64,000 bases of DNA from Desulfosporosinus youngiae DSM 17734 (GTDB lineage: Bacteria > Bacillota > Desulfitobacteriia > Desulfitobacteriales > Desulfitobacteriaceae), in the NCBI RefSeq assembly GCF_000244895.1, contig NZ_CM001441.1:4802198-4866197 (forward strand), written 5' to 3'. Shown here in pieces: positions 7,167 to 64,000 of the stretch. Position 1 is the stretch's first letter. Each line of letters starts with the position of its first letter. Below the pieces are notes generated by a model. The model was not told where the DNA came from and ran no database searches. It worked only from the letters and a program-made list of their open reading frames with translations. The position numbers were made by a program, and so were the translations under genes.

Positions 7167-7311
7167 GAAAAATTCCTCCTTTGTATTTCTTAGTGAAATA
7201 CTTGGTTTTTATTATAAAGTAAAAAATTCGGATAAGCAACCAGTTGTTCGTAGTCCGAAATCAGAGGCACGAAGTCCGAACTTCATGTTGGACGTTCCTC
7301 TCGGGTGTGTG

Positions 7312-21973: not shown

Positions 21974-22242
21974 AAGTGAACCCTCCTATATCAAACAGTT
22001 GGTATAATTATGCTTAAAAACCAGCTTTGTTACTCGCTATGGATATTATACCACGGAGCAACCAAAGTTACTTCAAGAGGAAATTCAAACTCCATTTGAG
22101 CTTTGTCCCAACTATTCGAGACTTCGACATGTATTCAACCCATAGGAGGAATCCTAGCGGCACTTAGCCAATTAAAGAAACTCTTCGGAGAAGTTTTCGA
22201 ACCTCGAGCCTCGAACCTCGCCTAACCCCTAAGAAGTCCTTG
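21974..22242. other. Non-coding gap upstream of tldD
   Basis: No gene seen. Contains a TTCG-rich array at about 22195-22220 (repeated CGAACCTCGAGCCTCG-type units). The tldD promoter should lie here. Confidence 0.5.
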
Positions 22243-26149: not shown

Positions 26150-26270
26150 GCCTATCTTGTTCCTTCCACTACTAGAGTTATATTATAAACGCTTTGTCTT
26201 TTTTTCTTAAGTGTATCTATTATTCTAAATTTTGTCAAAAAAACCTACTGACTAATGGCCGGGCATCAGG

Positions 26271-26345
26271 GGCGTGACAAGGGGACGGGGTTATTGACAC
26301 AAAAATGCATTTTGTGTCAATAACCCCGTCCCTTAGTCACACCTG
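26271..26345. repeat. Long hairpin with GGGACGGGG arms
   Basis: Perfect 23-bp stem (26282-26304 with 26310-26332) around the loop ATGCA, extended by a second GTGAC/GTCAC pairing with small bulges. It lies 9 bases past the fapA stop. There is no T-tract, so it is not a standard terminator. The GGGACGG sequence is shared with the hairpin at 28393-28482. Confidence 0.9.
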
Positions 26346-26353
26346 ACACCCCT

Positions 26354-28288: not shown

Positions 28289-28392
28289 ATTAACACCCCG
28301 CTATTCATTCCGTTTTTTAAATAATATCATAATTCCCACCCATCCCTATAGGTCTTTAGTCCCAATAAATCACAAATTTCTAAACAATTATG

Positions 28393-28482
28393 TGTCGGGG
28401 ACGGCGTGCCAACGGGAGCGGCCCTTTTAACACACTACAAGTGTGTCAAAAGGGCCACCCCCGTGACACGCCGTCCCCGACA
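28393..28482. repeat. Long interrupted hairpin with GGGGACGG arms
   Basis: Outer 16-bp perfect stem (28393-28408 with 28467-28482), a middle ACGGG/CCCGT pairing, and an inner 16-bp stem with one mismatch (28420-28435 with 28441-28456) closed by a 5-base loop. It starts 5 bases after the LCP stop codon and has no T-tract. Confidence 0.9.
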
Positions 28483-28487
28483 GCTCC

Positions 28488-33988: not shown

Positions 33989-34232
33989 TGATCCCCACTC
34001 CTTATAGACCGATTCTATTATCGACCAAATTCCCTCAATCTGGCCCGCAGACTTTTTAGGATTTCGACAGCACTATTAGCATATGATAAAGGAAACTCAC
34101 GCAGTGAGTTTGTCCAGTCCGTAAACTCGCAGTTCTTATGTGGGAGTTCCATAGGACCAAGCTTAAACTGAACGAGTATACTGACCTTTATTTTTTATTA
34201 GCTGAAGTTATCTGTTATCTGGTCTTCAACCA
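33989..34232. other. Divergent non-coding region between selA and the zinc-ribbon gene
   Basis: Contains a perfect 8-bp hairpin with a 3-base loop at 34093-34111 (AAACTCAC/GTGAGTTT). No gene, tRNA or known riboswitch was recognised. Confidence 0.5.
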
Positions 34233-34260
34233 TTGACCTTTGACCTTTGACTTCTGACTC
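34233..34260. repeat. Short TGACCTT/TGACTTC heptamer array
   Basis: Four tandem degenerate heptamers of the type TTTGACC, ending TTCTGACTC. A similar array occurs at 57993-58024. Confidence 0.75.
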
Positions 34261-44302: not shown

Positions 44303-45055
44303 CTAAAACAAATTCTTTTTTTGCCGGCTCAGCCTTCCCCTTAACCGCAAAATCGCTTGGGAATGGAGTTGGGAAATTCTTGATTCGGAGAGCTTCATGA
44401 CTGCAGCAATCTCTTTTAAGGTTAGTTCTTCTTGATAATAAAGCCCTATCACTAATTTTTCTTTTTCCGGCAACTTTTCCACTGCCAGGGCCAGGATCTG
44501 TTTTTGTTCGTCTTTTTCTATCACCTTATAAGCTTCCTGGGCATCCAAGTCCACTAGCAGGTTAAGGGGAGTACCGCTATTATCTCCTTCACTATCGACA
44601 GAGCTTTCATCAAAGGATGTTAAGTTTAGAACCTGAGCCTGGGCCAAAGCCCCTTCTATCTCCTTTACGTCAACTTTCAGCCATTCTGCGACTTCTTCGG
44701 CCGTAACAGCCCGTCCAAGCTGATTTTCCAACTCGGCAAAGCCGTCTTGAACCCGTTTCACTTTCTGTCTGGCCGAATGAGGGACCCAGTCCATCGTTCG
44801 GAGTCCATCGATCATTGCTCCGCGAATACGGATTGAGGCATAGGTTTCAAATTTAAACCCTCTAGCCGGTTCAAAACGCTCCAAGGCATCGAGTAACCCA
44901 AAGACACCATACCCGATAATATCATCCTCGTCCACATGAGATGGAAGGGAGATTGCTAAACGACCCGCAATCCGCTTAACCAAAGGCAAATATCGTTCTA
45001 TATGCTCTTGTTTCCAAGGTCCGCGTGAGGCGGCTTCATAGGCGTTCGGTATCAA
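44303..45055 (-). CDS. fliA: Flagellar sigma factor FliA (sigma-28, SigD)
   Basis: 250-residue sigma-70 family factor for late flagellar and chemotaxis genes. Region 2 is GYGVFGLLDALERFEPARGF with KFETYASIRIRGAMIDGLR and DWVPHSARQ; region 4 is LPEKEKLVIGLYYQEELTLK with EIAAVMKLSESRISQLHSQA. The DWVPRS-type motif and length point to FliA/SigD rather than a sporulation sigma. TTG start at 45055 with GGGGGTGAG upstream. It is placed between the chemotaxis genes and the hook block. Confidence 0.93.
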   Translation of the reverse strand: MIPNAYEAASRGPWKQEHIERYLPLVKRIAGRLAISLPSHVDEDDIIGYGVFGLLDALERFEPARGFKFETYASIRIRGAMIDGLRTMDWVPHSARQKVKRVQDGFAELENQLGRAVTAEEVAEWLKVDVKEIEGALAQAQVLNLTSFDESSVDSEGDNSGTPLNLLVDLDAQEAYKVIEKDEQKQILALAVEKLPEKEKLVIGLYYQEELTLKEIAAVMKLSESRISQLHSQAILRLRGRLSRQKKNLF

Positions 45056-45073
45056 GGTTTACTCACCCCCTAT

Positions 45074-45119
45074 ATCGAAGTTCGAGGTTCGTGGTTCGAG
45101 ATTCATAGTTCGAATCGAG
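45074..45119. repeat. TTCG-rich degenerate hexamer array
   Basis: Six TTCG/TCGA-centred units at about 6-11 base spacing (ATCGAAGTTCGAGGTTCGTGG, continuing to GTTCGAATCGAG in spirit). It is in the 282-base gap 45056-45337 before fliA, whose other end (45300-45337) carries a second array of TCGGA units abutting the upstream stop codon. Nothing else was seen in the gap. Confidence 0.7.
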
Positions 45120-45337
45120 TATGTAGTTATCAACTATTAATTATGTCTCCTGCATTCGAACCACGATTATCTAAAATCGCACATCAGCATTTCACCCCAA
45201 GATAAGTGACTATGTTTTATGTTTCGATGAAGAGTTAAACTCCACACAAGTTATCAGCTTGATATTCTTAGCGCAAATTCCCAAACAAGCTTAATCGTTC
45301 AAATGTCGGATATCGGATTTAGAACTTCGGACCTCGC

Positions 45338-45730
45338 TTATTGCCAGCCCATTCGGCGAACCATTTCCGCTTGTTTTTCGCTGTCCGGTAACCCGGAGCT
45401 TAAATCACGATCAACCTGTCCGGGAAATCCTGCATCGTTTCCCTGTGAACTAAGAGGTTCATCGTCTCCGACAGAGAAATCTATATTACCTCCACAGTCA
45501 GAAGTTGTGTCGGACTGAATATCCTGAGGTTTTTGGTGTGCCGTCCTTTCAAACAGCTCTAAACTTCCAGTGATTAAGCAATAGATGACGCCAAAAGAAA
45601 CCCCCGCCCGAACGATTATGTTCAGAAACCTTATCTCATTGATCAAGCTCAGCAATACGACGATTATGGCGGTAACAATTGAGAGGCGCATAGCCCAAAT
45701 TTGATATTGTTCTCTATTCAGGACGACCAT
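45338..45730 (-). CDS. Unrecognised two-helix membrane protein between cheD and fliA
   Basis: 130 residues, no family recognised. Two hydrophobic helices (about 14-31 and 35-56) are followed by an acidic, Ser/Asp/Gly-rich cytoplasmic-type tail (TSDCGGNIDFSVGDDEP to MVRRMGWQ). ATG at 45730 overlaps the cheD stop as TGATG, so it is coupled to cheD. Bacillus has the small membrane protein SwrB near sigD, but on the other side of it and without evident similarity, so no homology is claimed. Confidence 0.7.
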   Translation of the reverse strand: MVVLNREQYQIWAMRLSIVTAIIVVLLSLINEIRFLNIIVRAGVSFGVIYCLITGSLELFERTAHQKPQDIQSDTTSDCGGNIDFSVGDDEPLSSQGNDAGFPGQVDRDLSSGLPDSEKQAEMVRRMGWQ

Positions 45731-46209
45731 CAAACCACCTTTTCTCCATGATTAATGGTTCGTATTCGTAATTCTCCTGTTCCGACATCGAAATGAATGG
45801 TACGCCCAAAACTTCCTCCGACATCGGCCGCCAGAAGAGGAATTCCATATCTTTTAAGTTCCTGTTCCACTGCTTCAGCGTTGCGATCCCCGATTTTAAG
45901 AACCGGAGGTTTTCCCGGAAAGGAAAACATCTGAGCACCACCGGCCATTTTTGCTTTCAAGCGGGTTTTATTGGCACCCATACCTATGATGGCTTTAAGC
46001 AATAATTCCAGCGCAGTGTCTGCGTATTTAGCCGGATTTCCTCCCATGCTTCCATTAGCCGTCGGCAGCATAATATGGGCCATTCCGCCAACTTTAAGGA
46101 AGGGGTCATGTATGCAAATCCCAATACAGGATCCTAACCCAGCCGTTAGTAACAGGTCAGGCGAGGCGGCGGTTTTAAAATCAGCCATTCCGACAGTTAT
46201 AACACTCAT
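45730..46209 (-). CDS. cheD: Chemoreceptor glutamine deamidase CheD
   Basis: 159 residues. The catalytic Cys lies in GLGSCIGICIHDP and the His in VGGMAHIMLPTA, the CheD pair that deamidates receptor glutamines; KMAGGAQMF is also typical. CheD binds CheC and raises its phosphatase activity. ATG at 46209 overlaps the cheC stop by four bases (ATGA). Confidence 0.95.
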   Translation of the reverse strand: MSVITVGMADFKTAASPDLLLTAGLGSCIGICIHDPFLKVGGMAHIMLPTANGSMGGNPAKYADTALELLLKAIIGMGANKTRLKAKMAGGAQMFSFPGKPPVLKIGDRNAEAVEQELKRYGIPLLAADVGGSFGRTIHFDVGTGELRIRTINHGEKVV

Positions 46210-46802
46210 ACTCCCATAGCCCCTAACAATTTTTTCAATGAACCATCATCCGGCAAAAAGATAAATTGCCCTTCAATCTGAGGAATTCCGGTAAGCTGAG
46301 TATCGATAAACAATACGGTATCGTCCAGTACACCTTCTTCAAGGAAAATAGCATCTAAACTGGCACCAATCATATCTACCGCTAAAGCGGGCACAGAAGG
46401 TTGAAGGGGAATCCCCGAAAACTGTGTTAAGGCTATGATAAAGGAACTGACTAAAATATTTCCCACTTCTTTTAAAGCCGATTGGGCCATCTCACTCATA
46501 TAAAGGTCCATTGGCTCGTTCGTCCCAAACAGAGCCTGAACCACGATTTCGGCGCTTTCTACCGGAAAGAAAAAAACCGCTTTTCCCGAGGCCTCTCCTT
46601 CAACTTTCACATAGATAACAGCTTGAGGTGAGTCAAGTTGTCCCACAATATTTGAAACTTGTTCAAAGGGTACCGCCCAAACTTCAGGTATCGACATATC
46701 TATTCGACGCTGTAAAAGAGTGGACAAAGCTGTCGCTGCATGTCCGGATCCAATGTTTGCTATTTCACGTAAGGCGTCCAGCTGCAATTGGGTAATCTCC
46801 AA
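46206..46802 (-). CDS. cheC: CheY-P phosphatase CheC
   Basis: 198 residues. Two CheC/FliY/CheX phosphatase motifs of the ExxN type are seen: LREIANIGSGHAATALSTLL near the N-terminus and LKEVGNILVSSFIIALTQ in the middle. It dephosphorylates CheY-P and partners with CheD. TTG start at 46802, 2 bases after the PilZ gene stop. Both active sites appear intact, unlike some CheC-like proteins. Confidence 0.93.
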   Translation of the reverse strand: MEITQLQLDALREIANIGSGHAATALSTLLQRRIDMSIPEVWAVPFEQVSNIVGQLDSPQAVIYVKVEGEASGKAVFFFPVESAEIVVQALFGTNEPMDLYMSEMAQSALKEVGNILVSSFIIALTQFSGIPLQPSVPALAVDMIGASLDAIFLEEGVLDDTVLFIDTQLTGIPQIEGQFIFLPDDGSLKKLLGAMGV

Positions 46803-46804
46803 AT

Positions 46805-47458
46805 TTACACCAATCCTTTCTTACGCATTGCCCTTTGTATATCAAAGACGCAGCGGATAATTTTATCTCGCTCCCGTTCCGAGATTTCATGAAATTTGAC
46901 TGAAACACTATATTGTTTAGTGTCTTCAATACTTACCACCCGGCAAACACTAGCCGGGGTCTGTATCTCTCCATGGGGAAGGGAGAATTGCACAAAGAGC
47001 AAAGATTTATTCTCGATCCGTTCCTTCGTTGAGAAACGCATACCCCCGCCACTCAGGTCAAGGGTTACCGCCTTAAAACTATCACTGAGCCCTTCCCGCG
47101 TCACCATTCGAAAGGTGATGGGAAATGTGGCCGGCACCCTCACAAAATCCCGTCGTTGGACTTTGGCTACCGTATCAGGCAATACTAAAACAAATATAGG
47201 AAATGGAACAGCAATCCTTTGCATAATTTTCCCCTCAAAGGAATAGGCGGCAGTTTCATCCCAAAAGGTTACTTTCACCTTAGTTCCCTCACGAACGGGA
47301 ACTAATTCACCATTTTCAATAGGAACACCCACCGAGAGGAGTCTTTCTCCCATTTCTTCAACACGTGATCGGTAGTGCCCTTCATAATCGCCTTCGAGCA
47401 CGGTAAGTTCTACCGCCATCCCTAAGGAAAGCTTTTTCTTATACGACAATGTCGTCAC
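46805..47458 (-). CDS. PilZ-domain flagellar brake protein (YcgR/MotI-like)
   Basis: 217 residues. A YcgR-like N-terminal domain (YKKKLSLGMAVELTVLEGDY, EGTKVKVTFWD) precedes a PilZ domain with both cyclic-di-GMP motifs, RRDFVRVP and DLSGGGMRF. Such proteins slow motility when c-di-GMP rises by acting on the motor. The start is ambiguous: GTG at 47458 has the GGGGGG almost in contact, and a TTG three codons later (47449) has better spacing. It lies inside the operon, between flhG and cheC. Confidence 0.9.
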   Translation of the reverse strand: MTTLSYKKKLSLGMAVELTVLEGDYEGHYRSRVEEMGERLLSVGVPIENGELVPVREGTKVKVTFWDETAAYSFEGKIMQRIAVPFPIFVLVLPDTVAKVQRRDFVRVPATFPITFRMVTREGLSDSFKAVTLDLSGGGMRFSTKERIENKSLLFVQFSLPHGEIQTPASVCRVVSIEDTKQYSVSVKFHEISERERDKIIRCVFDIQRAMRKKGLV

Positions 47459-47496
47459 CCCCCTATCGATGATCGTGGTGGTTGTTCGTAGTTCGG

Positions 47497-48360
47497 TTAA
47501 AACGAGCGGAGCAATTTACTTAAGAAACCTTTTACACCGCCTGCCGGACGTGGCGGACGAAGATAAATTCCAGCGACTTTACCGGCGATCCACTTGGTAC
47601 ACCGATAGGCTGAACTATCAGGAAAACTAATTCCCAAAGGTTCCTGCTGCATCACTGAGTGCCCTACAAGCGGGTCATCATAAACCCATCCCAAAAAATC
47701 CAGTGATTCATCCAGAAATTTACTCACAGCAGTATCTAACCGTTTAAAGGTTGACAAGGCATCTTTTTCGGACCGCACTCGGTTAATCACCAGGTGAATT
47801 GGGACCTCGCTTGCTTCCCGCCTCAAGGATTTCAGCAACCCATAAGCATCCGTAATTGCCGTCGGTTCCGGCGTTGTTACCATAATAATATCATCCGCAG
47901 CCTGTAAAAAATTGATCACTGTATGACCAAGACCCGCTCCTGTATCTATAATCAATAGATCTGTCAGCTTTTCCAAGCGCCCAAGATTAGTGATAACATT
48001 CATCAGCTTATCTCGTTCTAAATTGGCCAGTTCCTGTACTCCGGACCCTCCTGGTATAATACCTATTCCCATGGGACCCCTGAGCAGAATCTCTTCCAGG
48101 CTTTTTTCTCCGGATAATAAATGCTCAACCGTATACCGTGCCGATAGACCAAAAGCAATATCTACGTTAGCAAGCCCTAAATCTCCATCAAGAATAATAA
48201 CTCTTTGCCCATATTCAGCCAAGGCCAGTGCCAAATTAACCGTAATAGTGGTTTTACCCACCCCGCCTTTGCCGCTGGTTACAGCGATAACCCTCATTTT
48301 TGCTTTTTTTTGATTTTGGCGGGATGCTAAATCCCGCAAAGCACTCGCTTGATCATGCAT
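47497..48360 (-). CDS. flhG: Flagellar number regulator FlhG (MinD-like ATPase)
   Basis: 287 residues. The deviant Walker A is TSGKGGVGKTTITVNLALAL and the ATP-switch is IIDTGAGLGH. The N-terminal DQASALRDLASRQ is the helix that activates the FlhF GTPase. FlhG and FlhF set flagellar number and position. The ATG at 48360 has GGAGGAG upstream within the end of flhF (8-base overlap). The C-terminal helix for membrane binding (GFLSKLLRSF) is present. Confidence 0.93.
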   Translation of the reverse strand: MHDQASALRDLASRQNQKKAKMRVIAVTSGKGGVGKTTITVNLALALAEYGQRVIILDGDLGLANVDIAFGLSARYTVEHLLSGEKSLEEILLRGPMGIGIIPGGSGVQELANLERDKLMNVITNLGRLEKLTDLLIIDTGAGLGHTVINFLQAADDIIMVTTPEPTAITDAYGLLKSLRREASEVPIHLVINRVRSEKDALSTFKRLDTAVSKFLDESLDFLGWVYDDPLVGHSVMQQEPLGISFPDSSAYRCTKWIAGKVAGIYLRPPRPAGGVKGFLSKLLRSF

Positions 48361-49522
48361 GGGGCATCTCCTCCCCGAGCACATAGCGCACCAAACGGTC
48401 GGGAGTCGCTGCTTCTATGTCATCGGGGACATTCTGCCCATTGGTCAGATAGGCAGTAGGAAGTGTTGTTCGACCCAGAAGATTTAAAATTGCCCCGGCA
48501 CTCCCCGTCTCGTCCAGCTTGGTGAAGATGAGATGTGTGGTTAAATCTTCGAAGCGCTTATAAATCCGATATTGATCGGCCGAGTGAGTAGTGGCGCTCA
48601 TAACCAGCATGGTGAAATCCGGTTGAGCCTCATTCAAAAACCCGCGTAATTCAGACATATGCACCTCATGCTGTGGACTGCGGCCCGCAGTATCAATAAA
48701 TATCAGTTCTTTATCCGCATGAAGCTGCAAAGCATTCCTTAGCCCTGATGGTGTCATGACGACTTCAACCGGAACTCCAATGATTTCCCCAAAAGTTTTA
48801 AGCTGCTCAACTGCCGCAACCCTATAGGTGTCCGCTGTAATTAAAGCAACCTTGCGTTTGTCAACAATACTAAAACCGGCTGCCAACTTACCGATCGTCG
48901 TCGTTTTTCCCACCCCCGTCGGACCAACCAAGGCGACAATCCTGGGTTTCTCAATCCCAGGCTGAATAAGCCCAATCTGTCCGCAGATTTGACGGACATT
49001 GGCTTGGATACGGAGGTACACCTGGGAATCGTCAGCCCATTCTTTGGGGGGCAATGTTTGCTGCACATGACTTATCAAGCGCTTAACCAAGTTTTCATTG
49101 ATGCCTCTGTTTTGCAGCAGGTCCGCCCATCTTTGCAGAACCGGCGGCCAAAGGTTTTTGTCCTCCTCAAGATTGGACTGTTTATTGATTTGGTGATTCA
49201 TTTTCTCAAGTAAGAGGCGCATCGACTTTATTTCCGCCTGAAGGTCTTCAGAGTGGTCTTCAGCATCGGGCAACAGCTTCGCTGAAGCCGGTTTTACGCC
49301 TTCAGTACTAAAGCCATAATTAGAAGCTGAAGTCTTCTTTGGAGTAACCGGAGCTTCTTCAATGGCCGCTGTGATCTCAATTTTCTTCTTGCCAAACAGG
49401 CCAAAGAAACCTCCATCACTAAATTCACGTGTCTGAAGGATAACAGCTTCAGATCCCAGTTCCCGTTTCACTTTTCCCATGGTCTCTGACACATTATCTC
49501 CCACAAATCGCCTAACTCGCAA
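48353..49522 (-). CDS. flhF: Flagellar biosynthesis GTPase FlhF
   Basis: 389-residue SRP-type GTPase. A basic/variable N-terminal domain (MRVRRFVGDNVSETMGKVKR) is followed by the NG domain: GPTGVGKTTTIGKLAAGF, LITADTYRVAAVEQLK, IDTAGRSPQH and FTKLDETGSAGAILNL. It recruits early flagellar components. TTG start at 49522 lies in the end of flhA (11-base overlap). Confidence 0.94.
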   Translation of the reverse strand: MRVRRFVGDNVSETMGKVKRELGSEAVILQTREFSDGGFFGLFGKKKIEITAAIEEAPVTPKKTSASNYGFSTEGVKPASAKLLPDAEDHSEDLQAEIKSMRLLLEKMNHQINKQSNLEEDKNLWPPVLQRWADLLQNRGINENLVKRLISHVQQTLPPKEWADDSQVYLRIQANVRQICGQIGLIQPGIEKPRIVALVGPTGVGKTTTIGKLAAGFSIVDKRKVALITADTYRVAAVEQLKTFGEIIGVPVEVVMTPSGLRNALQLHADKELIFIDTAGRSPQHEVHMSELRGFLNEAQPDFTMLVMSATTHSADQYRIYKRFEDLTTHLIFTKLDETGSAGAILNLLGRTTLPTAYLTNGQNVPDDIEAATPDRLVRYVLGEEMPHA

Positions 49523-51581
49523 GATCCATCCCCACCATTCCTACAGCTTGAACTTGTACCCCTTGGACCAATTCATTATATGAAAGCACCATAAGTTGCG
49601 GCAGTTGCCGCTCAGTGACCCGCTTTAAATTGATCCTCACTAGCGGAGCGCAGACAATGACCGGCGTCATGCCTTTAAGCACAACCTTTTCTACCTCGCG
49701 CGTAAGATTTTGCATGAGCACATGCAGCACTTTAGGATCTAAAGCTAAATAAGTTCCATAATCAGAGGGCTGAATGCTGTCTAATATCTGCTGCTCAATC
49801 TGCGGATCCAAGGTCATCACCGGTAAGCTCTTATCTTTCCCAAGCAGCGGCTGCAGAATTTGTCGTGCTAAGGCCTGCCGGACATGCTCTGTCAAGCGGT
49901 CCAGATCTTTTGTGGCGTGGGCATGATCCGCCAGAGTCTCCAGAATGGATACCATATCCCTGATTGAAACCTTCTCGCGCAGCAAGTTAGCAAGAACCTT
50001 CTGGACTTGACCCAGGCTAAGTATATCTGGAATTAACTCATCCACAACGGCCGGAGCCAATTCCTTGGCATGATCAATCAGTGTTTTAACATCCTGACGA
50101 CTTAGAATCTCCCAAGCCTGACTCTTAATGACTTCCGTAATATGGGTCGCCAGCACAGTCGGGGCATCAACAACCATCCACCCGTTAAGCTCGGCTTGTT
50201 CCCGGTACATGGCATTAATCCATTTAGCATCAAGCCCGAAGGCCGGGTCCTTTGTGGGAGTACCCGGAATCCCTTCATCATCAAACCCTCCGCTCATAGC
50301 CATGTAGTGGTCCGCCAATATTTCTCCGGCGGCAATTTCTGCTCCCCGGATTTTTATAACATATTGATTAGGCTGCAAGTTCATATTGTCGCGAACCCTA
50401 ATCACCGGAACAATAAAACCCAGCTCACTGGCAATTTGACGGCGAATCAAGACAATCCGGTCGAGCAAATCCCCCCCCTGCTGGACATCAACTAAGGCGA
50501 TCAGCGCATAGCCTAATTCAAGCTCCATATGGTCAACCTGTAAAAGATTCAGGACATTTTCCGGTTTCTTGCTCTCTTCAATTTCCGTTTCTCGTACTGC
50601 TGCAGTTTCTTTGATGACAGACACCTTTGAACTGCGCTGCAGCATGACTCCCAGGCCAACCAAAGCGGCGGCCACCATAAACAGCGGTAATCTCGGCAGG
50701 CCAAGCAGAGCTAACATGCATAATACTCCAGCCGTAATGAATAAAGCTTTCGGCTGTTTAAAAAGCTGCTTTACCAGATCGTCCCCTAAGTTACTTTCCG
50801 AAGCCGCCCGGGTGACCACTAATCCTGTCGCAGTCGAAATCATCAGGGCCGGAATCTGAGAGACTAGTCCCTCTCCGATTGTCAGTAAGGTATATTTATG
50901 CAGGGCATCCAGCAGGGCCATATCCTGCATGGCAACCCCTGTGATAAAACCTCCGATAATATTAATAAATAAGATAATAATTGCAGCAATGGCATCCCCC
51001 TTAACAAACTTGGTTGAACCATCCATCGCCCCATAAAAATCCGATTCCTGCTGGATCGCCTTTCGCCTGTCACGAGCCTGTTGCTCGTTAATCATCCCGG
51101 CATTAAGATCAGCATCAATCGACATTTGTTTTCCCGGCATAGCATCTAAGGTAAAACGAGCTGCCACCTCCGAGACACGTTCAGCTCCCTTGGTGATCAC
51201 AATAAACTGCACAAGAACCAAAATAATAAAGATAATAAAACCTACTACCGCATCTCCACGAATAACGAACTCCCCAAATTGCTGAATAATCTCCCCCGCA
51301 TGCCCGTCAAGGAGAATGAGGCGGGTCGCTGAGATATTCAGAGACAAGCGGAACAAGGTCAGCGTCAATAAGAGGGAAGGCAGAGCAGAAAACTCTAAAG
51401 GGTCCTTGGCAAAAACCGCCAGCATCAGAGTTAGAACAGAAGCTGTAATATTCAAAGTAATAAGAACATCCAGCAGTCCTGCAGGCAGCGGGACAACCAT
51501 CATGACCACGATGCTGACCAGTCCCAATGCCGCAATAATGTCCGTATTATTCAAGAACCGCCCCTTAACCATCGTAGACAT
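49512..51581 (-). CDS. flhA: Flagellar export gate protein FlhA
   Basis: 689 residues. About eight N-terminal membrane helices (from ALGLVSIVVMMVVPLPAGLL), the FHIPEP region with GAMDGSTKFVKGDAIAAI, and a cytoplasmic C-terminal domain that docks chaperone-substrate complexes. The ATG at 51581 has AAAGGAGGAG 5 bases upstream, clearly better than the frame start at 51605. A 134-base gap before it holds the hairpin at 51659-51720. Confidence 0.95.
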   Translation of the reverse strand: MSTMVKGRFLNNTDIIAALGLVSIVVMMVVPLPAGLLDVLITLNITASVLTLMLAVFAKDPLEFSALPSLLLTLTLFRLSLNISATRLILLDGHAGEIIQQFGEFVIRGDAVVGFIIFIILVLVQFIVITKGAERVSEVAARFTLDAMPGKQMSIDADLNAGMINEQQARDRRKAIQQESDFYGAMDGSTKFVKGDAIAAIIILFINIIGGFITGVAMQDMALLDALHKYTLLTIGEGLVSQIPALMISTATGLVVTRAASESNLGDDLVKQLFKQPKALFITAGVLCMLALLGLPRLPLFMVAAALVGLGVMLQRSSKVSVIKETAAVRETEIEESKKPENVLNLLQVDHMELELGYALIALVDVQQGGDLLDRIVLIRRQIASELGFIVPVIRVRDNMNLQPNQYVIKIRGAEIAAGEILADHYMAMSGGFDDEGIPGTPTKDPAFGLDAKWINAMYREQAELNGWMVVDAPTVLATHITEVIKSQAWEILSRQDVKTLIDHAKELAPAVVDELIPDILSLGQVQKVLANLLREKVSIRDMVSILETLADHAHATKDLDRLTEHVRQALARQILQPLLGKDKSLPVMTLDPQIEQQILDSIQPSDYGTYLALDPKVLHVLMQNLTREVEKVVLKGMTPVIVCAPLVRINLKRVTERQLPQLMVLSYNELVQGVQVQAVGMVGMDLAS

Positions 51582-51658
51582 GGGTCTCCTCCTTTCATTG
51601 AGCATACTTGCAAACCCGCATTTTAATTTAAACCATTCCGTCTGCCATCCTATGATCC

Positions 51659-51720
51659 CATGAATGAAATAAGATTGCCAAATGAACCCTCATGCTAACC
51701 CCAAATTTATTTCATTCATG
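51659..51720 (-). other. Perfect 14-bp intra-operon hairpin across the flhB stop
   Basis: CATGAATGAAATAA on the minus strand (51720-51707) is fully complementary to TTATTTCATTCATG (51672-51659), with a 34-base loop. The upstream arm contains the flhB stop codon. There is no T-run after it, so it is not a standard terminator. Confidence 0.85.
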
Positions 51721-52768
51721 CCCGCTTCTTCTTTTTCTTTAACCGGTAAACAAACGCCAGCACTTCGGCAACCGCTTTATAAAGATCCGCCGGAATCCCC
51801 TGCCCGATTTCCACCTGGGCATAAAGAGCACGGGCCAGCGGCTTGTTTTCCATGATCACAAGGTCATATTCCTTGGCCAACTCCCGCATTCGCAACGCAA
51901 CCTGGTCTTGACCCTTGGCAACGACGTAAGGGGCATTTTGTACTTTCGGGTCATAACGCAAGGCCACTGCAAAGTGGGTTGGATTGGTGACAACGACATC
52001 CGCCTGTTTCATGTCCTGCATCATTCGGCCCATGGCCATCGCACGTTGTCGTTTTTTTAGTTCACTTTTCAGTTCAGGGTTTCCTTCAGTTTGTTTGTAT
52101 TCCTGTTTTAAATCCTCATGAGACATTCGTAAATTCTTCTCATATTCCCACCGCTGGTAGATGTAATCAAAAGCGGCTATACCTAAAAACGAAAGGGAAA
52201 TATTCCAAGCAAGTTCCATTAAGGCCTCGCCTAATAAAACCGCCGCCTGCCCCACATTGAGTTGTTGCAGTGCTGGATAAATATGCAGGCGATCCCGGAC
52301 ACTTGCGTAAAGAAAATAGCCGATCAGAAGCACTTTCATTAACGATTTGACCAATTCCACCCATGCCTTTACGCCAAACATTCGCTTCGCGCCGCTGATC
52401 ATACTTAAACGTGAAAGTTGAGGTTTCATGGATTCCCCCGTAAAAAGAAATCCCACTTGGATATAATTAGAGATTAGGGCAATTAAAAACCCAGTACCTA
52501 AAATCGGGGCCATGATTTGAATCCCCAGCCAAAGAACGTTGAGCATGAGACTGGCCACCGAACGTTCCGTCCAATCCGAGGAAAGCCCTAAAACGTAGGG
52601 AAAAAGATACTGTATACGGAGAAACATTGCCGGAATCCAAAACCTAAGAAGAGCCACCAGACCTAAAAGCATCAACGCAGAGATAACTTCCTGGCTTTTA
52701 AATACCTGACCCTTTTTGCGCGCTTCCTGTTTCCGTCTGGGCGTGGCGGGATGTTTTTTTTCGCTCAC
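51716..52768 (-). CDS. flhB: Flagellar export switch protein FlhB
   Basis: 350 residues. Four membrane helices are followed by the cytoplasmic autocleaving domain with the NPTH site in VVVTNPTHFAVALRYD, where self-cleavage allows the hook-to-filament switch with FliK. The GTG at 52768 (SEKKHPATPRRK) overlaps the fliR stop by four bases and has GGGGTGG upstream; the frame start at 52801 is inside fliR. Confidence 0.95.
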   Translation of the reverse strand: MSEKKHPATPRRKQEARKKGQVFKSQEVISALMLLGLVALLRFWIPAMFLRIQYLFPYVLGLSSDWTERSVASLMLNVLWLGIQIMAPILGTGFLIALISNYIQVGFLFTGESMKPQLSRLSMISGAKRMFGVKAWVELVKSLMKVLLIGYFLYASVRDRLHIYPALQQLNVGQAAVLLGEALMELAWNISLSFLGIAAFDYIYQRWEYEKNLRMSHEDLKQEYKQTEGNPELKSELKKRQRAMAMGRMMQDMKQADVVVTNPTHFAVALRYDPKVQNAPYVVAKGQDQVALRMRELAKEYDLVIMENKPLARALYAQVEIGQGIPADLYKAVAEVLAFVYRLKKKKKRA

Positions 52769-53544
52769 TGTTTCCACCCCTGATAAAGTTCTAAGACCCA
52801 AGACATATTGGTATCAAATAGCCGGGCAACAGCTTCTCCGAAAAAGGGAATCGAGAGATACAAAATAATAAGTCCAAAAACAATCTTAACCGGGAAAATC
52901 ACCGCAAAAATATTAAGTTGAGGTACTGTTCTGGATAAGAGCCCGACCCCGACATCGGATACAAGAAGTGCTCCGAAAACCGGCATTGCCAATTGAGCTG
53001 CTAAAGCAAAAACATGAGCAACCAGCTGAACGTAAAAAAGATAGTTATGCGGCAAGCTGGACGGGTTTATAGGAATATAAGCATAGCTCTTAACCATGGC
53101 GGCAATTAAATAGTGATGAGAATTCGTCGAAAGCAAAAGCATGGTCGCTAATATTATCTGGAAGTTACCCATCATAGGACTTTGTACACCATAAACAGGG
53201 TCAATGGCCGACCCCATCGTAAAACCCATTTGATAATCGATCAACTGCCCTGCTCCTTGTAAAACAGCCGTCAGCAGGTAAATGAGAAATCCAATGACCA
53301 GCCCCACCAGAACTTCCTTGATTACCACCGCAACATACGGCAAAAGCTCCTCTGGAATGGATGGATTCGCTGCCTGAATGAGGGGATACAGAATTACCGA
53401 GATGCTGGCCGCCAAGCCAAGCCTTGCCATACCAGGAACGCCCCTCGCGCCGAAAACCGGTGCCAGCATAATCATACCCGCCCAACGAGATAAAATCAGC
53501 AGGAATAACGAGAGATTCCATTGGAGCAGCTGGGCCAGACTCAA
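52765..53544 (-). CDS. fliR: Flagellar export protein FliR
   Basis: 259 residues with about six membrane helices. AGMIMLAPVFGARGVPGMAR and QGAGQLIDYQMGFTMGSAID are FliR family motifs of the export gate ring. TTG start at 53544 with GGGGGGAG upstream. A 126-base gap separates it from fliQ, unusual in the fliP-Q-R run, and is filled by TTCG arrays. Confidence 0.93.
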   Translation of the reverse strand: MSLAQLLQWNLSLFLLILSRWAGMIMLAPVFGARGVPGMARLGLAASISVILYPLIQAANPSIPEELLPYVAVVIKEVLVGLVIGFLIYLLTAVLQGAGQLIDYQMGFTMGSAIDPVYGVQSPMMGNFQIILATMLLLSTNSHHYLIAAMVKSYAYIPINPSSLPHNYLFYVQLVAHVFALAAQLAMPVFGALLVSDVGVGLLSRTVPQLNIFAVIFPVKIVFGLIILYLSIPFFGEAVARLFDTNMSWVLELYQGWKQ

Positions 53545-53562
53545 ATTTTCTCCCCCCTGTTG

Positions 53563-53669
53563 CGATGTTCGTGGTTCGATGTTCGAAATCTATAGATCAT
53601 GTTTGGGGTCGCGGTTAATACTTCGTTAGTCAGAGGACCCAAGTCCGAATTCGAATTTCGAACCTCGCG
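53563..53669. repeat. TTCG-rich arrays filling the fliQ-fliR gap
   Basis: Two arrays, 53563-53588 and 53643-53669, of TTCG-centred units. The second begins directly at the fliQ stop codon on the minus strand as GCGAGGTTCGAAATTCGAAT. No reading frame explains them. Confidence 0.7.
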
Positions 53670-53670
53670 C

Positions 53671-53943
53671 TCACATGCCTCCAAACGTCGCCAACTGAGT
53701 CAATAAATTGGTCGCATAGGCGGTCAGAACTGACAGCATCCACGGACCTAACAAGAGCATAACGACAGCCACGGCAACTACTTTGGGAATAAAGGAAAGC
53801 GTCTGCTCCTGGATTTGTGTCATAGACTGAAAGATGCTGACCAGAAGACCGACCAACAAAGCGACCCCGAGAATAGGCCCTCCCACAAGCAGCACTGTCC
53901 CAACGGCTTCCTTAGCCATATACAGTACCTGATTTTGGGTCAT
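53671..53943 (-). CDS. fliQ: Flagellar export protein FliQ
   Basis: 90 residues, two hydrophobic helices (about 10-38 and 52-75) joined by a polar loop (SMTQIQEQTLSFIPK), the FliQ pattern. Two ATGs are in frame; 53943 has AAGGGGG at proper spacing whereas 53949 touches it, so 53943 is preferred. It lies 17 bases after fliP. Confidence 0.93.
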   Translation of the reverse strand: MTQNQVLYMAKEAVGTVLLVGGPILGVALLVGLLVSIFQSMTQIQEQTLSFIPKVVAVAVVMLLLGPWMLSVLTAYATNLLTQLATFGGM

Positions 53944-53960
53944 TGTCATTCCCCCTTTCC

Positions 53961-54728
53961 CTACTTAAAGCTGCCCACTAAGGATTCTACGACAAGATGC
54001 CAGCCGTCCACCAAGACAAATAACAATAATTTGAAGGGCAGAGAAATCATCATCGGCGGAAGCATCATCATCCCAATTGACATAAGGGTAGTGGAAACAA
54101 TCATATCGATAACTATGAAAGGAACAAAAATAGCAAATCCCATTTGAAACGCTGTTTTTAATTCACTGATCACAAAGGCTGGAATCAGAACATAGGTGGG
54201 AACGTCCCGATAAGTTTTGGGGCGTTCCATTTTAGACAGCCCCACAAAAAGCTCCAGGTCTTTTTCCCGTGTCTGCTTAAACATAAACATTCGCAAGGGC
54301 TCTTCCGCTCTCTCAAGGGCCTCTGCCTGGGTAATCTGATTCTGCATATAAGGCTGAATGGCATTGGTATTGATCTGATTCCAGGTCGGGGCCATGATAA
54401 AAAACGACAGAAACAGGGATAAGCCTACGAGCACTTGATTCGGGGGCAGCTGCATGGTTCCTAAGGCATTTCTTACAAAGGACAAGACAATAATAATCCG
54501 GGTAAAGGACGTCATCATCATCAGAATGGCGGGGGCCAAAGAGAGTACCGTTAATAACATTAATATTTGCAGTGAGGTACCTGTTTGTTCCGCCGTTGAT
54601 GTTCCCAAATCTAAGGTTAATCCTGCCGCCCAAGCAATTTCAGGACATGAAAACAATCCAAATCCCAGCGCAGCGCCAAAAGCCAGCCCTAAAGTCAAGA
54701 GTTTAATGGTACGGCCTGAAGAAGACAT
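53961..54728 (-). CDS. fliP: Flagellar export protein FliP
   Basis: 255 residues. A signal-like N-terminus is followed by four membrane helices with [38 protein letters not shown] and [18 protein letters not shown], all FliP hallmarks. It forms the core of the export gate with FliQ and FliR. ATG at 54728 overlaps the fliO stop as TAATG. Confidence 0.95.
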
Positions 54729-55195
54729 TACTTTTCGACCTCCTCAAGCAAACGCTTCAATTCTGCAGAAAAAGTGTCTTTCTTGCGGGACTGCTTCGGC
54801 CAAAGCTTCCGGGCACTTTGGAGCCATCCTTCCACACGTTCCGTGGGACGTGTGGCGATCTCTTCCAAAATCTCAGCAGCGATATGGGGATCATTGATCT
54901 CACTAAGTTTCACCAGGTGGTGATCCGATCCGCCAAGGACCTGTAACTTTCCGGCAATCTCCACCAGGTACAGGCTTTGCTGCCCACTTAGAATTTGCCG
55001 GTCGAGAACCCTTGCCCAGGGTGCATTCATCGTCCGCATAGCTGCCCGATTCAGGCGCCGGAGAATCCAGAGAGACACCAGTAAAATAATAAGGAAAACC
55101 AGTAACGTTCCCAGAAGCCCCCACCATGAGAATACAGACTGGGTAACCGCCGGAGCGGTTCCACTTGAAGGAAACACTTGGTCTTCAAAGGACAT
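54728..55195 (-). CDS. fliO: Flagellar assembly protein FliO
   Basis: 155 residues. One membrane helix (about 22-45, [20 protein letters not shown]) and a cytoplasmic domain with the FliO/FliZ strand pattern [20 protein letters not shown], then a charged tail. FliO helps FliP assemble. It starts one base after cheY; the ribosome binding site is weak, so coupling to cheY is likely. Confidence 0.88.
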
Positions 55196-55196
55196 G

Positions 55197-55559
55197 TTAT
55201 TTCAACGCCTTCGTGACAGCCTCAACCACGCGTTCCGCTTGAAAAGGCTTGACGACAAAGTCTTTAGCCCCGGATTGAATAGCTTCGATGACCATAGCTT
55301 GTTGACCCATAGCACTGCACATAATGATCCGTGCTTTCGAATCCAGTTTACGGATTTCTTTTACCGACTGCAGCCCGTCCATTTCCGGCATTGTAATATC
55401 CATAATTGTCAAGTTCGGCTGCAACTCCTTATACTTTTCAACAGCCACCGCTCCATTTTCAGCTTCACCAATTACATTGAACCCATTTTTCTGTAAGATG
55501 TCCTTTAGCATCATACGCATAAACGCAGCATCATCAACAATCATTATGGTAGCACTCAT
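55197..55559 (-). CDS. cheY: Chemotaxis response regulator CheY
   Basis: 120-residue single receiver domain. Acid pocket MIVDDAAFMR, phospho-acceptor Asp in LTIMDITMPEMDGL, switch Ser in IIMCSAMGQQ, and Lys in DFVVKPFQ are all seen. Phospho-CheY binds FliM/FliY to change rotation. The ATG at 55559 has GGGAGG 7 bases upstream. Gene order fliY-cheY-fliO is as in Bacillus. Confidence 0.95.
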   Translation of the reverse strand: MSATIMIVDDAAFMRMMLKDILQKNGFNVIGEAENGAVAVEKYKELQPNLTIMDITMPEMDGLQSVKEIRKLDSKARIIMCSAMGQQAMVIEAIQSGAKDFVVKPFQAERVVEAVTKALK

Positions 55560-55621
55560 CACATTTCCTCCCTTATCTACTTTCAAATACTCCAATTTCT
55601 ATTAAACCAGGACTCCTCACT

Positions 55622-56872
55622 CTACTTCAATGAATTCATCCGTTCCACGGGATGGACAATATCTGTAATCCGAATTCCAAAGGTCTCATTAATGACAACA
55701 ACCTCACATTTAGCAATCAACTTGCCATTGACAATCATATCGACTGGTTCCCCGGCCAAGCGATCCAATTCGATAACTGAACCGGGTCCCATATCCAGGA
55801 TTTCTTTAATCGTTTTTTTCGCCCGGCCCAGTTCAACACTTATTTGTAAAGGTACATCCAGAATCAAGCTTAGATTATCAGGCTGCGTCAGGGGAGGTCC
55901 CGGCTGAAGCGGTGCAAATTGTGCCGGCTGAACCGGCATCTGCACTCTGGCTTGATGACCAGGCTGCCCCATTCCATAGGAGGAATGATCCATTGGCGCC
56001 GAATAAGGTGCCCCATCGTAGATCGGAGACTCGTAAGCGGGTGCTCCGTAAGCCGGAGCCGGGGCTTCGTAGACTGGTGTTGAGGGTGGCTGGGGGCTTT
56101 GAAACGCTGTGGGCGGGGGAGCAGGAGCTGCAGGTTGTGCAGCCGGAGCCGGTGGAGCGGAGCCTCCATCCATCCCGCCCATTAGCTTACCGACCATTCT
56201 TTTAGCAACGTCAAGGGGAATTACCTGAACAAGAGTACTGTCAATGACATCTTCTACAACCATGCGGAAAGAGATCCGGACAAGGGGTTCATCCGCAGAC
56301 AAAAAATCATGAATCACATCTCTCCCCGTCGCCATGTCATTAAGCACTAAATTTGGCGGGGTAATATCTACCATCGCATTAAACATGGTCGACATAGATG
56401 TGGCAGCCGATCCCATCATTTGGTTCATAGCTTCTGAGATACCGCTGATTTGAAGATCAGAAAGCCCGTCTGACGGGTTTTTTCCATCCCCTCCCATCAT
56501 CAAGTCAACAATGACTGAACCATCCCGTTGAGAAAGAATCAAGAGATTCGAGCCTTCAATTCCTGCTTTGTATTTGACATCACAAATCACGGAAGGGATA
56601 GGATAATCATGACGAATCTGTTCCGAGGTCGTTAAGTCCACTTTCGGCGTGGTAATATCCACCTTTTTGCCTAAGAGCTGAGATAATGTCGTGGCAGCAG
56701 TACCCATGGAAATATTAGCAATTTCGCCGAGAGTATCCTTTTCCATCTCATTCAATAAATCAAAGGCCGTTAATGACTCCGGGGCCAATTCAGGTGGTGT
56801 GTCCAAGTCAGATTCAAGTGTTCCTCGAAGCAGCGCATCAATTTCTTCCTGAGTGAGCGACCCATTACCCAT
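55622..56872 (-). CDS. fliY: Flagellar motor switch phosphatase FliY
   Basis: 416 residues in three parts: N-terminal CheY-P-binding motif LTQEEIDALLRG; CheC-like domain with two ExxN sites (LGEIANISMGTAATTLSQLL and ISEAMNQMMGSAATSMS); then an 85-residue Pro/Ala/Tyr/Gln-rich linker (about 240-325) and a C-terminal FliN/SpoA domain (DVPLQISVELGRAKKTIKEI). It is both C-ring component and CheY-P phosphatase. ATG at 56872 with GGAGGGG upstream; overlaps fliM by 8 bases. Confidence 0.95.
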   Translation of the reverse strand: MGNGSLTQEEIDALLRGTLESDLDTPPELAPESLTAFDLLNEMEKDTLGEIANISMGTAATTLSQLLGKKVDITTPKVDLTTSEQIRHDYPIPSVICDVKYKAGIEGSNLLILSQRDGSVIVDLMMGGDGKNPSDGLSDLQISGISEAMNQMMGSAATSMSTMFNAMVDITPPNLVLNDMATGRDVIHDFLSADEPLVRISFRMVVEDVIDSTLVQVIPLDVAKRMVGKLMGGMDGGSAPPAPAAQPAAPAPPPTAFQSPQPPSTPVYEAPAPAYGAPAYESPIYDGAPYSAPMDHSSYGMGQPGHQARVQMPVQPAQFAPLQPGPPLTQPDNLSLILDVPLQISVELGRAKKTIKEILDMGPGSVIELDRLAGEPVDMIVNGKLIAKCEVVVINETFGIRITDIVHPVERMNSLK

Positions 56873-57860
56873 CTTGTTCCCCTCCTTCCTCTATTATTTC
56901 CGTTATCTGAACGGCGAGATGTTCCCCGTGAAGACCAGGGATAGACTTGAATTTCATAAATTCACCCACATAAATTGGCAGTGGATCCTGAACTGATTGG
57001 TTCAGTGGAATAACATCTCCTTTAGCAAGATCCAAAAGGTCTCTGACCAGGATTTCCGAGTTACCTAAAAACGCAATCATATCAACTTTCGCCCATTCGA
57101 TTTTTTTCCGAATCGCTTGTACCTGCTCCGGAGAAGTGACCTTCGCCTCTGTGGAAAAGAGGAAAAACGTACTTAACTTATCTAAGATGGGCTCAAGGAC
57201 CAGATAGGGCATACAGATATTAATCATCCCGATTGCTTCGCCGACCTTGACTTCAAGGGTTATGAGTACAATCATTTCATTAGGAGCTACAATTTGTGTA
57301 AACTGAGGATTCGATTCCATCGATATAAAATGCGGTTTAAGGGCGTAAACCTCTGACCAGGCTTCTTCCGTGATATTTACCATTTGAGTTAAGCGGTTTT
57401 CTATAATTGTCCTTTCAATCTCGGTTAAATCCCGGTTTTTTTCCGTCCCTTGCCCTTGCCCTCCTAAAAGCCGGTCCACCACCGCAAAGGTGAGAGAAGG
57501 GCTCACCTCCATTAAGATTGTACCCTCCAGCGGATTCAGGGAGTAAAGGGCCAGGACAGTGGGGTTAGGTAAAGACCGGATAAACTCGTCATAGGTGATC
57601 TGTTCTATTGAAACAACAGAGCTTTCAACGACAGAATGCAGATTCCCGGAAAAAAAAGTAGTAAGACCTCTGCAATAATTCTCATGAATATTATGGAGGG
57701 AGTGAATCTGATCCTTGGAAAACTTATTCGGACGTTTAAAATCGTATACACGAATCCGCTTTTGAGTCTTGGTTGTCTTCATTTCCTCTACGTCAACTTG
57801 TCCATCGGACAGCGCATTCAGCAGAGCATCAATCTCAGCCTGGGACAAGACGTCTCCCAT
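56865..57860 (-). CDS. fliM: Flagellar motor switch protein FliM
   Basis: 331 residues. The N-terminal LSQAEIDALLNAL is the CheY-P docking peptide; then YDFKRPNKFSKDQIHSLHNI, the GGxG motif GGQGQG in DRLLGGQGQGTEKN, and a C-terminal SpoA domain (LLDLAKGDVIPLNQSV). ATG at 57860, after GGGGGTGG; a TTG immediately before it is in frame. A 164-base gap upstream holds repeat arrays. Confidence 0.95.
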   Translation of the reverse strand: MGDVLSQAEIDALLNALSDGQVDVEEMKTTKTQKRIRVYDFKRPNKFSKDQIHSLHNIHENYCRGLTTFFSGNLHSVVESSVVSIEQITYDEFIRSLPNPTVLALYSLNPLEGTILMEVSPSLTFAVVDRLLGGQGQGTEKNRDLTEIERTIIENRLTQMVNITEEAWSEVYALKPHFISMESNPQFTQIVAPNEMIVLITLEVKVGEAIGMINICMPYLVLEPILDKLSTFFLFSTEAKVTSPEQVQAIRKKIEWAKVDMIAFLGNSEILVRDLLDLAKGDVIPLNQSVQDPLPIYVGEFMKFKSIPGLHGEHLAVQITEIIEEGGEQDG

Positions 57861-57874
57861 CAAACCACCCCCTT

Positions 57875-58024
57875 GCTCGATATTCGATCTTTCTGGTTCG
57901 AACCTTTATTCTCAATCTATATAGCTTAAACTCATAACCAATGTTCGATTGTGAGTTATTCGTCGTCACACCAGAAATACCAACCTCGCAACTCTGACCT
58001 CCGGCTTCTGACCTCTGACCTCTG
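57875..58024. repeat. TTCG array and CTGACCT heptamer array between fliL and fliM
   Basis: Near fliM, 57875-57904 carries TCGATATTCGATC and GGTTCGAACC units. Next to fliL, 57993-58024 carries four CTGACCTC/CTTCTGACC heptamers ending exactly at the fliL stop codon. The unit resembles the array at 34233-34260. Confidence 0.7.
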
Positions 58025-58453
58025 TTATTGGTAGACCAAAGAAAGAAAGAGAACATCTGTGATTTGATCTTCTGCCACTTCATTAAGCTTCTCAATTAAC
58101 TCTTTCCTCAATTTTTCACGTGCCTGTGTGGTTTGTACATCGGCAAGGGATTTATCCGCCAAAACCGTATTAACCCGGTCTTTTAAGAACGCATCCTCTT
58201 CCTTCAAATGCTCCCCCGCTTTTACATCGCTCACTTGAACTGTAATAGCCGTCTTCAGAAAGGCTCCACCTTGCAAATTCACAGTGAATTCACCGATGGG
58301 CAGTAAGGGTCCTGTTTTTTTGGCATGGGATTTTTTAGAACTGTCATCAAACGTCTTAAAGATAAAGGTTTGAGCCCCAATTGTCCCTCCCACACCAAGA
58401 GCCGCTCCCAAGAACAAGGCTAGAATTACAAAAATAAGGGATTTACGATTCAT
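58025..58453 (-). CDS. fliL: Flagellar basal-body protein FliL
   Basis: 142 residues. One N-terminal membrane helix (about 5-27) and a periplasmic-side domain with GPLLPIGEFTVNLQGGAFLK and the C-terminal LRKELIEKLNEV followed by DVLFLSLVYQ are the FliL pattern; it stabilises stators. ATG at 58453 with GGAGGAG upstream, inside the end of flbD (11-base overlap). Confidence 0.92.
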   Translation of the reverse strand: MNRKSLIFVILALFLGAALGVGGTIGAQTFIFKTFDDSSKKSHAKKTGPLLPIGEFTVNLQGGAFLKTAITVQVSDVKAGEHLKEEDAFLKDRVNTVLADKSLADVQTTQAREKLRKELIEKLNEVAEDQITDVLFLSLVYQ

Positions 58454-58658
58454 AAATCTTTTGCTCCTCCACTTTGTAAGTCTGACAACGCCTGCGAAAC
58501 TCAGCAATGCGCTCAATAAGAACCTCGATGGCTTCTGATACGACGTATTTATTTCCACCCGTTAAGGTTATGACCGTATCCGGGGTTTCTTCCATCAATT
58601 CAATCAAGTCGGGATTTAAAGCAAAGGTTTTTCCATTTAAGCGAGTAACATAAATCAT
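58443..58658 (-). CDS. flbD: FlbD family protein
   Basis: 71 residues. MIYVTRLNGKTFALNPDLIE with DTVITLTGGNKYVVSE is the complete FlbD family, a small protein always found in Gram-positive and spirochaete flagellar operons before fliL or motA; its role is not well defined. ATG at 58658 with GGGGATG upstream. It sits directly after fliJ here, where Bacillus has ylxF-fliK-flgD-flgE in between. Confidence 0.92.
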   Translation of the reverse strand: MIYVTRLNGKTFALNPDLIELMEETPDTVITLTGGNKYVVSEAIEVLIERIAEFRRRCQTYKVEEQKIYES

Positions 58659-63903: not shown

Positions 63904-64000
63904 TCTTGGCTCCTCCTTTCATTCGATGCTCGAACAGAGACATTCGTTTCAAACCTCTCAGAGGCTGAATCTCGTGTGTCGCTCCTGGCGCTTTGGATCT
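63904..64000. other. Region upstream of fliF at the window edge
   Basis: Contains the fliF ribosome binding site and a short TTCG-rich stretch (63921-63957). No gene is called. Confidence 0.4.

Follow-up and report, generated by a model that had tools for sequence, protein, structure and literature searches.

What are the TTCG-rich runs that fill gaps between the genes of an otherwise tight flagellar operon in Desulfosporosinus youngiae DSM 17734? We analysed a stretch of 64,000 nt of this genome (NZ_CM001441.1, positions 4,802,198 to 4,866,197; hereafter the window), in which a sequence-only reading had described such arrays on the minus strand as beginning directly after stop codons, and had offered either a common low-complexity filler that expands at 3′ ends or an RNA-level signal as the explanation. 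We observed that two arms facing inward between genes, (TTCGWDR)n followed by (CGAAYHW)n, make up the basic unit. With a probability of about 0.56, we regard the arrays as eroded members of a degenerate heptad family of Desulfosporosinus and its relatives, which is mostly tolerated filler and not a dedicated signal.

Unit, period and polarity of the heptads

The repeat is a degenerate heptad, mostly of the form TTCG-W-D-R. Among 470 units, the variable triplet conformed to W in 451, to D in 461 and to R in 430, and the commonest triplets were TGG, ATA, AGG, ATG, TAG and AAG. Frequencies were obtained from the window and from a grid sample of 60 stretches (1.2 Mb) of the same genome; the stretch L202, chosen for its matches, was excluded from these counts. 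Genes were called by a purpose-written script (coding fraction 0.79), so some of the gaps hide missed genes and some starts are misplaced. In the intergenic DNA of grid and window, TTCG self-pairs at a spacing of 7 numbered 25 against 4.56 expected. In the called genes spacing 7 was ordinary, with 21 self-pairs as compared with 6 to 35 at other spacings, and formed no peak. The same-direction gaps of the window held 8 heptad pairs as compared with 0.23 in shuffled sequence, and a 3-unit pattern matched the whole genome 22 times against 3 times for the reversed control; these 22 matches merge to 15 loci. Triple heptads of the form RGGTCNR had no match anywhere in this genome. The excess over shuffles was seen in the window, in the grid and in genome G013, and was driven chiefly by CGAA pairs (TTCG pairs in the grid, 3 vs 1.23 in shuffles). 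The comparison with shuffled sequence that had been suggested as a check thus gave more heptads than base composition predicts, and the excess in this genome is real but moderate.

Within the grid, a single TTCG pair lay at most 25 nt from a stop codon (shuffle mean 0.14, maximum 3), while six CGAA pairs lay at most 35 nt from a start (shuffle mean 0.26, maximum 2). The corresponding counts in the window were 1 on the stop side (shuffles 0.01) and 5 on the start side (shuffles 0.07). It is the start side, and not the stop side, that is enriched in this genome. The placement directly after stop codons holds for fliQ, whose stop is followed by the only clear stop-side arm in the cited operon (53646-53670), and fails as a general enrichment. 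The runs assigned to the flhG stop are CGAA-type units within a gap of 38 nt and can be ascribed to the start side no less than to the stop side.

The order of the arms was counted in a strict set drawn from the flagellar loci, the loci around matches, the grid sample and a sample of G013, from which duplicates and self-overlapping TTCGAA words had been removed. As the loci L203-L262 were chosen around 3- or 4-unit matches, they inform order and orientation, not frequency. Of 124 same-direction gaps with heptads, 54 had TTCG before CGAA, 2 had the reverse order, 48 had CGAA only and 20 had TTCG only. Hence, 54 of the 56 gaps holding both arms are inward-facing, with TTCG after the stop and CGAA ahead of the ribosome-binding site. 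In 35 of 76 gaps no more than 9 nt separated the stop from the first TTCG; in 104 gaps the median distance from the last CGAA to the start was 22 nt, which places it just 5′ of the ribosome-binding site. Alternation of the two orientations (F-R-F-R) was found in 4 of the 124. A looser count, which kept duplicate gaps from the overlapping locus sets of Desulfosporosinus I2 and BRH_c37 and scored TTCGAA as both arms, gave 65 TTCG-first, 4 reverse, 37 CGAA-only and 16 TTCG-only gaps. Heptads were present in 6 of 150 divergent gaps, 3 of these with TTCG before CGAA on the plus strand, which is a small sample. The idea of an array that expands at 3′ ends is incomplete, the arms being paired inward and the start-side arm being the enriched one here. 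An insertion between stop and ribosome-binding site in a tight gap must touch both, so this placement may be partly passive.

The arrays recur at orthologous gaps, which were compared across named Desulfosporosinus genomes by way of their FlhF loci. For the fliQ-fliR gap, two or more CGAA words at 7-bp steps precede a G-rich ribosome-binding site in 10 of 12 rows; the exceptions are L026, with one CGAA, and the Acididesulfobacillus row L043, with none. TTCG heptads follow the fliQ stop immediately in several rows (e.g. L030, L029, L027 and L033). Similar arrays occupy the gaps of relatives between the 45338 gene and the sigma-factor gene, between flhG and the PilZ gene and between fliL and fliM, with presence, absence and big shifts in length. 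Within the family, the 3-unit pattern was found in 40 of 45 genomes (G023, for example, has 157 matches against 3 for the control), and most of the 29 genomes of the genus were well above control. One sister genus (g3) had the pattern in 0 of 4 genomes; across the order, a 4-unit pattern occurred in 48 of 73 genomes. Some genomes hold perfect arrays, G010 for instance a run of 20 TTCGTAG words, and G014 has alternating 14-mers. The description as a common low-complexity filler therefore came close, the actual entity being a dispersed, genus-wide heptad family.

Two further observations were made in relatives. One set of heptad positions spanning ~3 kb occurs three times in G001 (contig C1, near 619903, 682769 and 3449742), perhaps around rRNA operons. 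A single gap of G013 (L244:12548-13231) carries several tandem repeats (AGAATAG, TTGAAG, GTTGAG and others) beside heptad arms, and this series suggests a slippage-prone gap.

These counts bear on chance or base composition as a sufficient cause. The excess in the own genome is modest, the runs at 63921 and after the 45338 gene are weak, and four genomes of the genus (G008, G009, G017 and G025) lie near control, all of which speaks for chance. The shuffles, the reversed-pattern controls and the family-wide pattern contradict this account, which is hardly credible in general and already refuted for the heptad family; individual weak runs may be chance.

Pairing of the arms and a possible role in RNA

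As the TTCG and CGAA units are complementary, the two arms of a gap can pair. The predicted pairing is strong. The 37 strict paired gaps (mean length 167) had a mean fold z score of −4.3, the 37 word-free gaps (mean length 134) one of −1.3, and at least 6 pairs closing the stop side to the start side were predicted in 30 of the former and 16 of the latter. Looser sets of 44 gaps each gave mean z scores of −3.8 and −1.5, with such closure in 35 and 22. In the fliQ-fliR gap of the window, the arms 53563..53588 and 53646..53670 base-pair with each other in the predicted RNA fold, the stem connecting both arms and leaving the ribosome-binding site free. The reverse order of arms would pair equally well, and therefore pairing alone cannot explain the polarity.

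It has to be considered whether the hairpin, or the A/C-rich start-side arm, is an RNA-level element governing translation of the downstream gene or stability of the message. In its favour, the CGAA arms stop just 5′ of the ribosome-binding site, and the outermost triplets have a slight pairing advantage over permuted ones (2.00 vs 1.80 of 3 positions, P=0.037, n=34), a weak effect. Exact complements of these triplets showed no significant excess (P=0.27, n=34). When duplex energies of each arm with its own and with swapped partners of the same genome were compared, the own partner was better in 27 of 50 cases (P=0.67), or 24 of 41 in the strict set (P=0.35). Over whole arms, partner-specific hairpins were therefore rejected, own arms being no better than swapped ones, and a gap-specific RNA signal, the second explanation of the sequence-only reading, is not supported. 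A hairpin alone would not require the TTCG-then-CGAA order, one or both arms are missing from several orthologous gaps, and the palindromic core described below occurs in both orientations. Neither the window nor the five loci L221, L239, L240, L033 and L025 had an Rfam match at gathering score. On this balance, we consider an RNA-level element unlikely.

That the arrays are neither coding nor terminators, as first proposed, is borne out. No called gene overlaps them, and among 8 intrinsic terminator-like sites (G+C-rich stem then T run) in 45000-58600, where shuffles gave 14.2, none lies in an array gap. This is a warning to annotators that such a gap may contain neither a gene nor a terminator.

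A palindromic core and the spread of modules

Some modules of other Desulfosporosinus (L239, L240, L221, L244 and L033) have a conserved middle of 86 model positions with heptad arms on both flanks. This core contains two palindromes, TTCGATTC-TGC-GAATCGAA and GCGAAC-TTT-GTTCGC. At an E value of 0.01, the core model matched in 18 of 45 genomes, all within the genus and with up to 13 matches per genome; it had no match in the own genome or window. The core model R1, run on 14 sources (the window and other flagellar loci), matched only in L033 and L040. In MAG_BO167 (L033) the fliQ-fliR gap contains the core, and in SbF1 (L040) the same gap contains its second half. The loci examined hold 46 core copies, 38 in same-direction gaps and 8 with unclear context. 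Of the 38, 15 are oriented with the genes and 23 against them, orthologous copies not being collapsed. From flanks read by eye, some core gaps precede mreB- and minD-like genes. A search for repeated gap middles returned mostly other repeat families.

A core of this kind would suit a MITE- or REP-like small mobile element with the heptad arms as its inverted ends, of which the window would hold coreless relics. Both orientations of the core, its occurrence on several contigs in some genomes and the fixed polarity of the arms, as expected from a single element type, agree with this account. Among the 29 genomes of the genus, core counts rise with the number of heptads (rho 0.64), in part by construction since the cores themselves contain heptads, and with the count of Y1_Tnp, the only transposase family looked at (rho 0.49, P=0.007). 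Heptad numbers show no such relation to Y1_Tnp (rho 0.24, P=0.22), and G018 and G031 (the latter 67 percent complete) have heptads above control without a Y1_Tnp match. One core match each was found in G018 and G014, with 0 and 1 Y1_Tnp matches, respectively. On these grounds a link to a RAYT/Y1 transposase was not upheld for the heptads, which are uncorrelated with it; for the core the correlation is moderate, and the G018 core is present without it. The absence of the core from the own genome and window and the crowding of all copies into one small region in several genomes also speak against mobility. Taken together, a mobile origin appears quite improbable, although the correlation of core and Y1_Tnp, with the scattered cores of G035 described below, shifts slightly more weight to it and away from tolerated filler.

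REP/BIME, ERIC and MITE-type repeats are small, non-coding, intergenic and palindromic, and are tolerated inside operons, all of which applies to the modules described here. The latter differ in that only the heptads have a fixed consensus, no linked transposase was found (Y1_Tnp examined), and the own genome is coreless.

If the arrays are tolerated filler, as we prefer, the following course of events may be envisaged. Arms would grow by polymerase slippage, aided by the self-complementary TTCGAA step; the perfect arrays of G010 and the alternating 14-mers of G014 fit slippage. Modules would be copied between gaps, often locally, through template switching or gene conversion. Local copying is supported by the crowding of core matches, of which G022 has all 7 on a single 13-kb contig and G013 and G019 each have 4 of 4 within 10 kb, and by the clustering of array loci in the own genome, where 8 of the 15 fall inside 310 kb, a width picked post hoc (0 of 20000 uniform simulations). 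In tight operon gaps the modules may be tolerated since the RNA hairpin would fold out and keep the stop near the ribosome-binding site, and the A/C-rich CGAA arms may be retained on the start side because they seldom mimic a Shine-Dalgarno sequence. Shine-Dalgarno-like words occur in 24 of 99 TTCG arms vs 5 of 142 CGAA arms, which makes selection against TTCG arms before starts plausible.

Several observations weigh against tolerated filler, or against the steps just outlined. Slippage and copying are deduced from sequence with one genome per species. In the close species pair L023/L031, the difference is 0-2 nt for three heptad gaps and 104 nt for one, and by eye no gap differs by a clear whole-unit run. 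The start-side arms of this pair have diverged by 4.7 percent (106 sites) vs 13.4 percent at third codon positions (6612), a slow divergence that argues for an RNA-level element. The stop-side stretches are not slowed (14 percent of 121 sites), and as divergence below that of third codon positions is also seen in the gap middles (5.6 percent of 142 sites) and at intergenic sites elsewhere (8.2 percent of 744), the slowness of the start-side arms is only a hint of constraint. An element acting in RNA would likewise agree with the lean of own-genome arrays toward same-direction gaps (17 of 550 vs 1 of 173 others, P=0.09). In G013 the trend is opposite (6 of 356 vs 3 of 90, P=0.39), and a preference for such gaps is not established. 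As for folding, 11 of the 37 word-free control gaps also fold at z < −2, and the window gaps 53545-53670 (z 0.45) and 45056-45337 (z −0.65) fold no better than shuffles. According to the parts considered here of a review on translational coupling, the effect weakens as distance grows, and predicted structure right after the stop is correlated with less coupling (PMC12548453); this does not favour an easy account of the hairpin as a coupling bridge. Finally, the 10 core matches of G035 are spread over 7 contigs, so copies are not always local.

Known heptad systems and features of the window

Tandem, partly degenerate 7-nt intergenic repeats have been described in Xanthomonas campestris and X. 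axonopodis (GGGAATC, (GGGANTN)n) and in Nostoc (GGGGA(C/T)T), near stops in the sense strand and near starts in the antisense strand, often as convergent pairs and preferentially in same-direction gaps (PMC4692102). In the portions of that paper drawn on here, its authors stress quadruplex formation and could identify no role. The arrays of Desulfosporosinus share the partly degenerate intergenic tandem units and the inward-facing pairs at gene ends (54/56), with the own genome clearly enriched on the start side only. Unlike the G-rich, quadruplex-forming unit, ours seldom brings GGG into an arm (TTCG arms, 2 of 99; CGAA arms, 4 of 142). The arrays also differ in belonging to another phylum and in the extra core between the arms in some genomes. 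A same-direction preference is not established here, the P values given above being 0.09 in the own genome and 0.39, in the opposite direction, in G013. We therefore see the known heptad geometry with a different unit, for which a quadruplex seems dispensable. The same polarity and pairing with a mostly G-run-free unit points to position and orientation as the common element, rather than the quadruplex.

A second system, the TAACTGA repeats of Beggiatoaceae, some Cyanobacteria and Bacteroidetes, likewise forms intergenic heptad arrays near start codons, and a translational role has been proposed, not shown (PMC4679880). As described in the parts of that source used here, it differs in having one main unit, mostly in one orientation toward the start with one inverted set reported in that genome, and in that most copies lack a ribosome-binding site. 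Also on record are long simple sequence repeats built of 7-nt units (Mrazek 2007, as cited in PMC4679880 and PMC4692102), and slippage has been proposed as the reason why 7-nt units abound (PMC4679880). In the open-licence literature, we found nothing on heptad arrays of Desulfosporosinus or on interspersed repeats of this sort in Peptococcaceae. It is possible, and we put it forward tentatively, that inward heptad pairs at stops and ribosome-binding sites are a convergent feature of unrelated phyla with unrelated units, produced by a shared process (e.g. slippage together with selection favouring fold-out spacers and leaders poor in G) or by a role in translation coupling, the G-quadruplex not being the reason. 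Why heptads, and why at gene ends, is an old loose end that can now be tested by comparison.

The arrays of the window are collected in Table 1. The genes were named from Pfam, where nine of ten proteins matched: the sigma factor, the PilZ/YcgR-like protein, a ParA/MinD-type ATPase at the flhG position, an SRP54-type GTPase (flhF), fliR (Bac_export_1), fliQ (Bac_export_3), fliM, fliL and fliF. The product of the 45338 gene had no Pfam match.

Table 1. Heptad arrays and related repeats of the window (positions in the 64,000-nt stretch)
Feature	Position	Strand	Remarks
Stop-side arm, fliQ-fliR gap	53646..53670	−	TTCG words running inward from the fliQ stop
Start-side arm, fliQ-fliR gap	53563..53588	−	CGAA heptads (coding strand) immediately 5′ of the GGGGGGAG site
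Start-side arm upstream of the sigma-factor gene (fliA/whiG-like)	45074..45119	−	4 words
Stop-side arm, probably eroded, after the 45338 gene	45305..45337	−	GCGAGGTCCGAAGTTC..., exact 7-bp TTCG pair absent
flhG to PilZ/YcgR-like gap, 38 nt	47459..47496	−	Two CGAA heptads, start-side type
Start-side arm, fliL-fliM gap	57875..57904	−	Two words, 14-bp step
Stop-side tandem heptads, non-TTCG, fliL-fliM gap	57992..58024	−	AGGTCAG type (CTCTGAC unit on the plus strand), 4.7 copies
Heptad array, non-flagellar, stop side of gap	7256..7280	−	3 words
Heptad array	22197..22220	−	Unit TCGAACC on the plus strand; period 7, 3.4 copies (tandem-repeat finder)
Weak, possibly eroded array 5′ of the fliF start	63921..63957	−	A single TTCG and two CGAA words, none paired at 7 or 14 bp

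Most sites of the sequence-only reading do carry TTCG/CGAA words at 7- or 14-bp steps: at 45081-45112 (4 words), 53568-53585 (3), 7256-7280 (3), 47485-47495 (2) and 57883-57900 (2, one 14-bp step). At 53646-53662, 3 words are set at steps of 6 and 7. The runs at 63921-63957 and after the 45338 gene are the weak ones, lacking exact heptad pairs. Its statement that arrays fill most gaps over 100 bases was accurate for three of the four such gaps in the cited region; the remaining one, 51606-51715, has none.

A further tandem heptad outside the TTCG family lies at 34229-34258 (unit ACCTTTG on the plus strand); with the CTCTGAC unit of Table 1, it indicates that 7-nt tandem repeats here are not confined to that family. 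An 18-bp tandem repeat (6375-6550; 9.8 copies, 94 percent) falls within the open frame 6014-6676. At 22536-22758, we observed a dispersed intergenic repeat of roughly 220-300 bp with 86-91 percent identity to other gaps of the same genome (L132:8379-8914, L149:6640-7126 and L112:14714-15113). The gaps 26150-26353 and 28289-28487 open with long hairpin-like sequences (around GGGACGGGGTTATTG and GGGGACGGCGTG), which by eye resemble another small palindromic repeat family.

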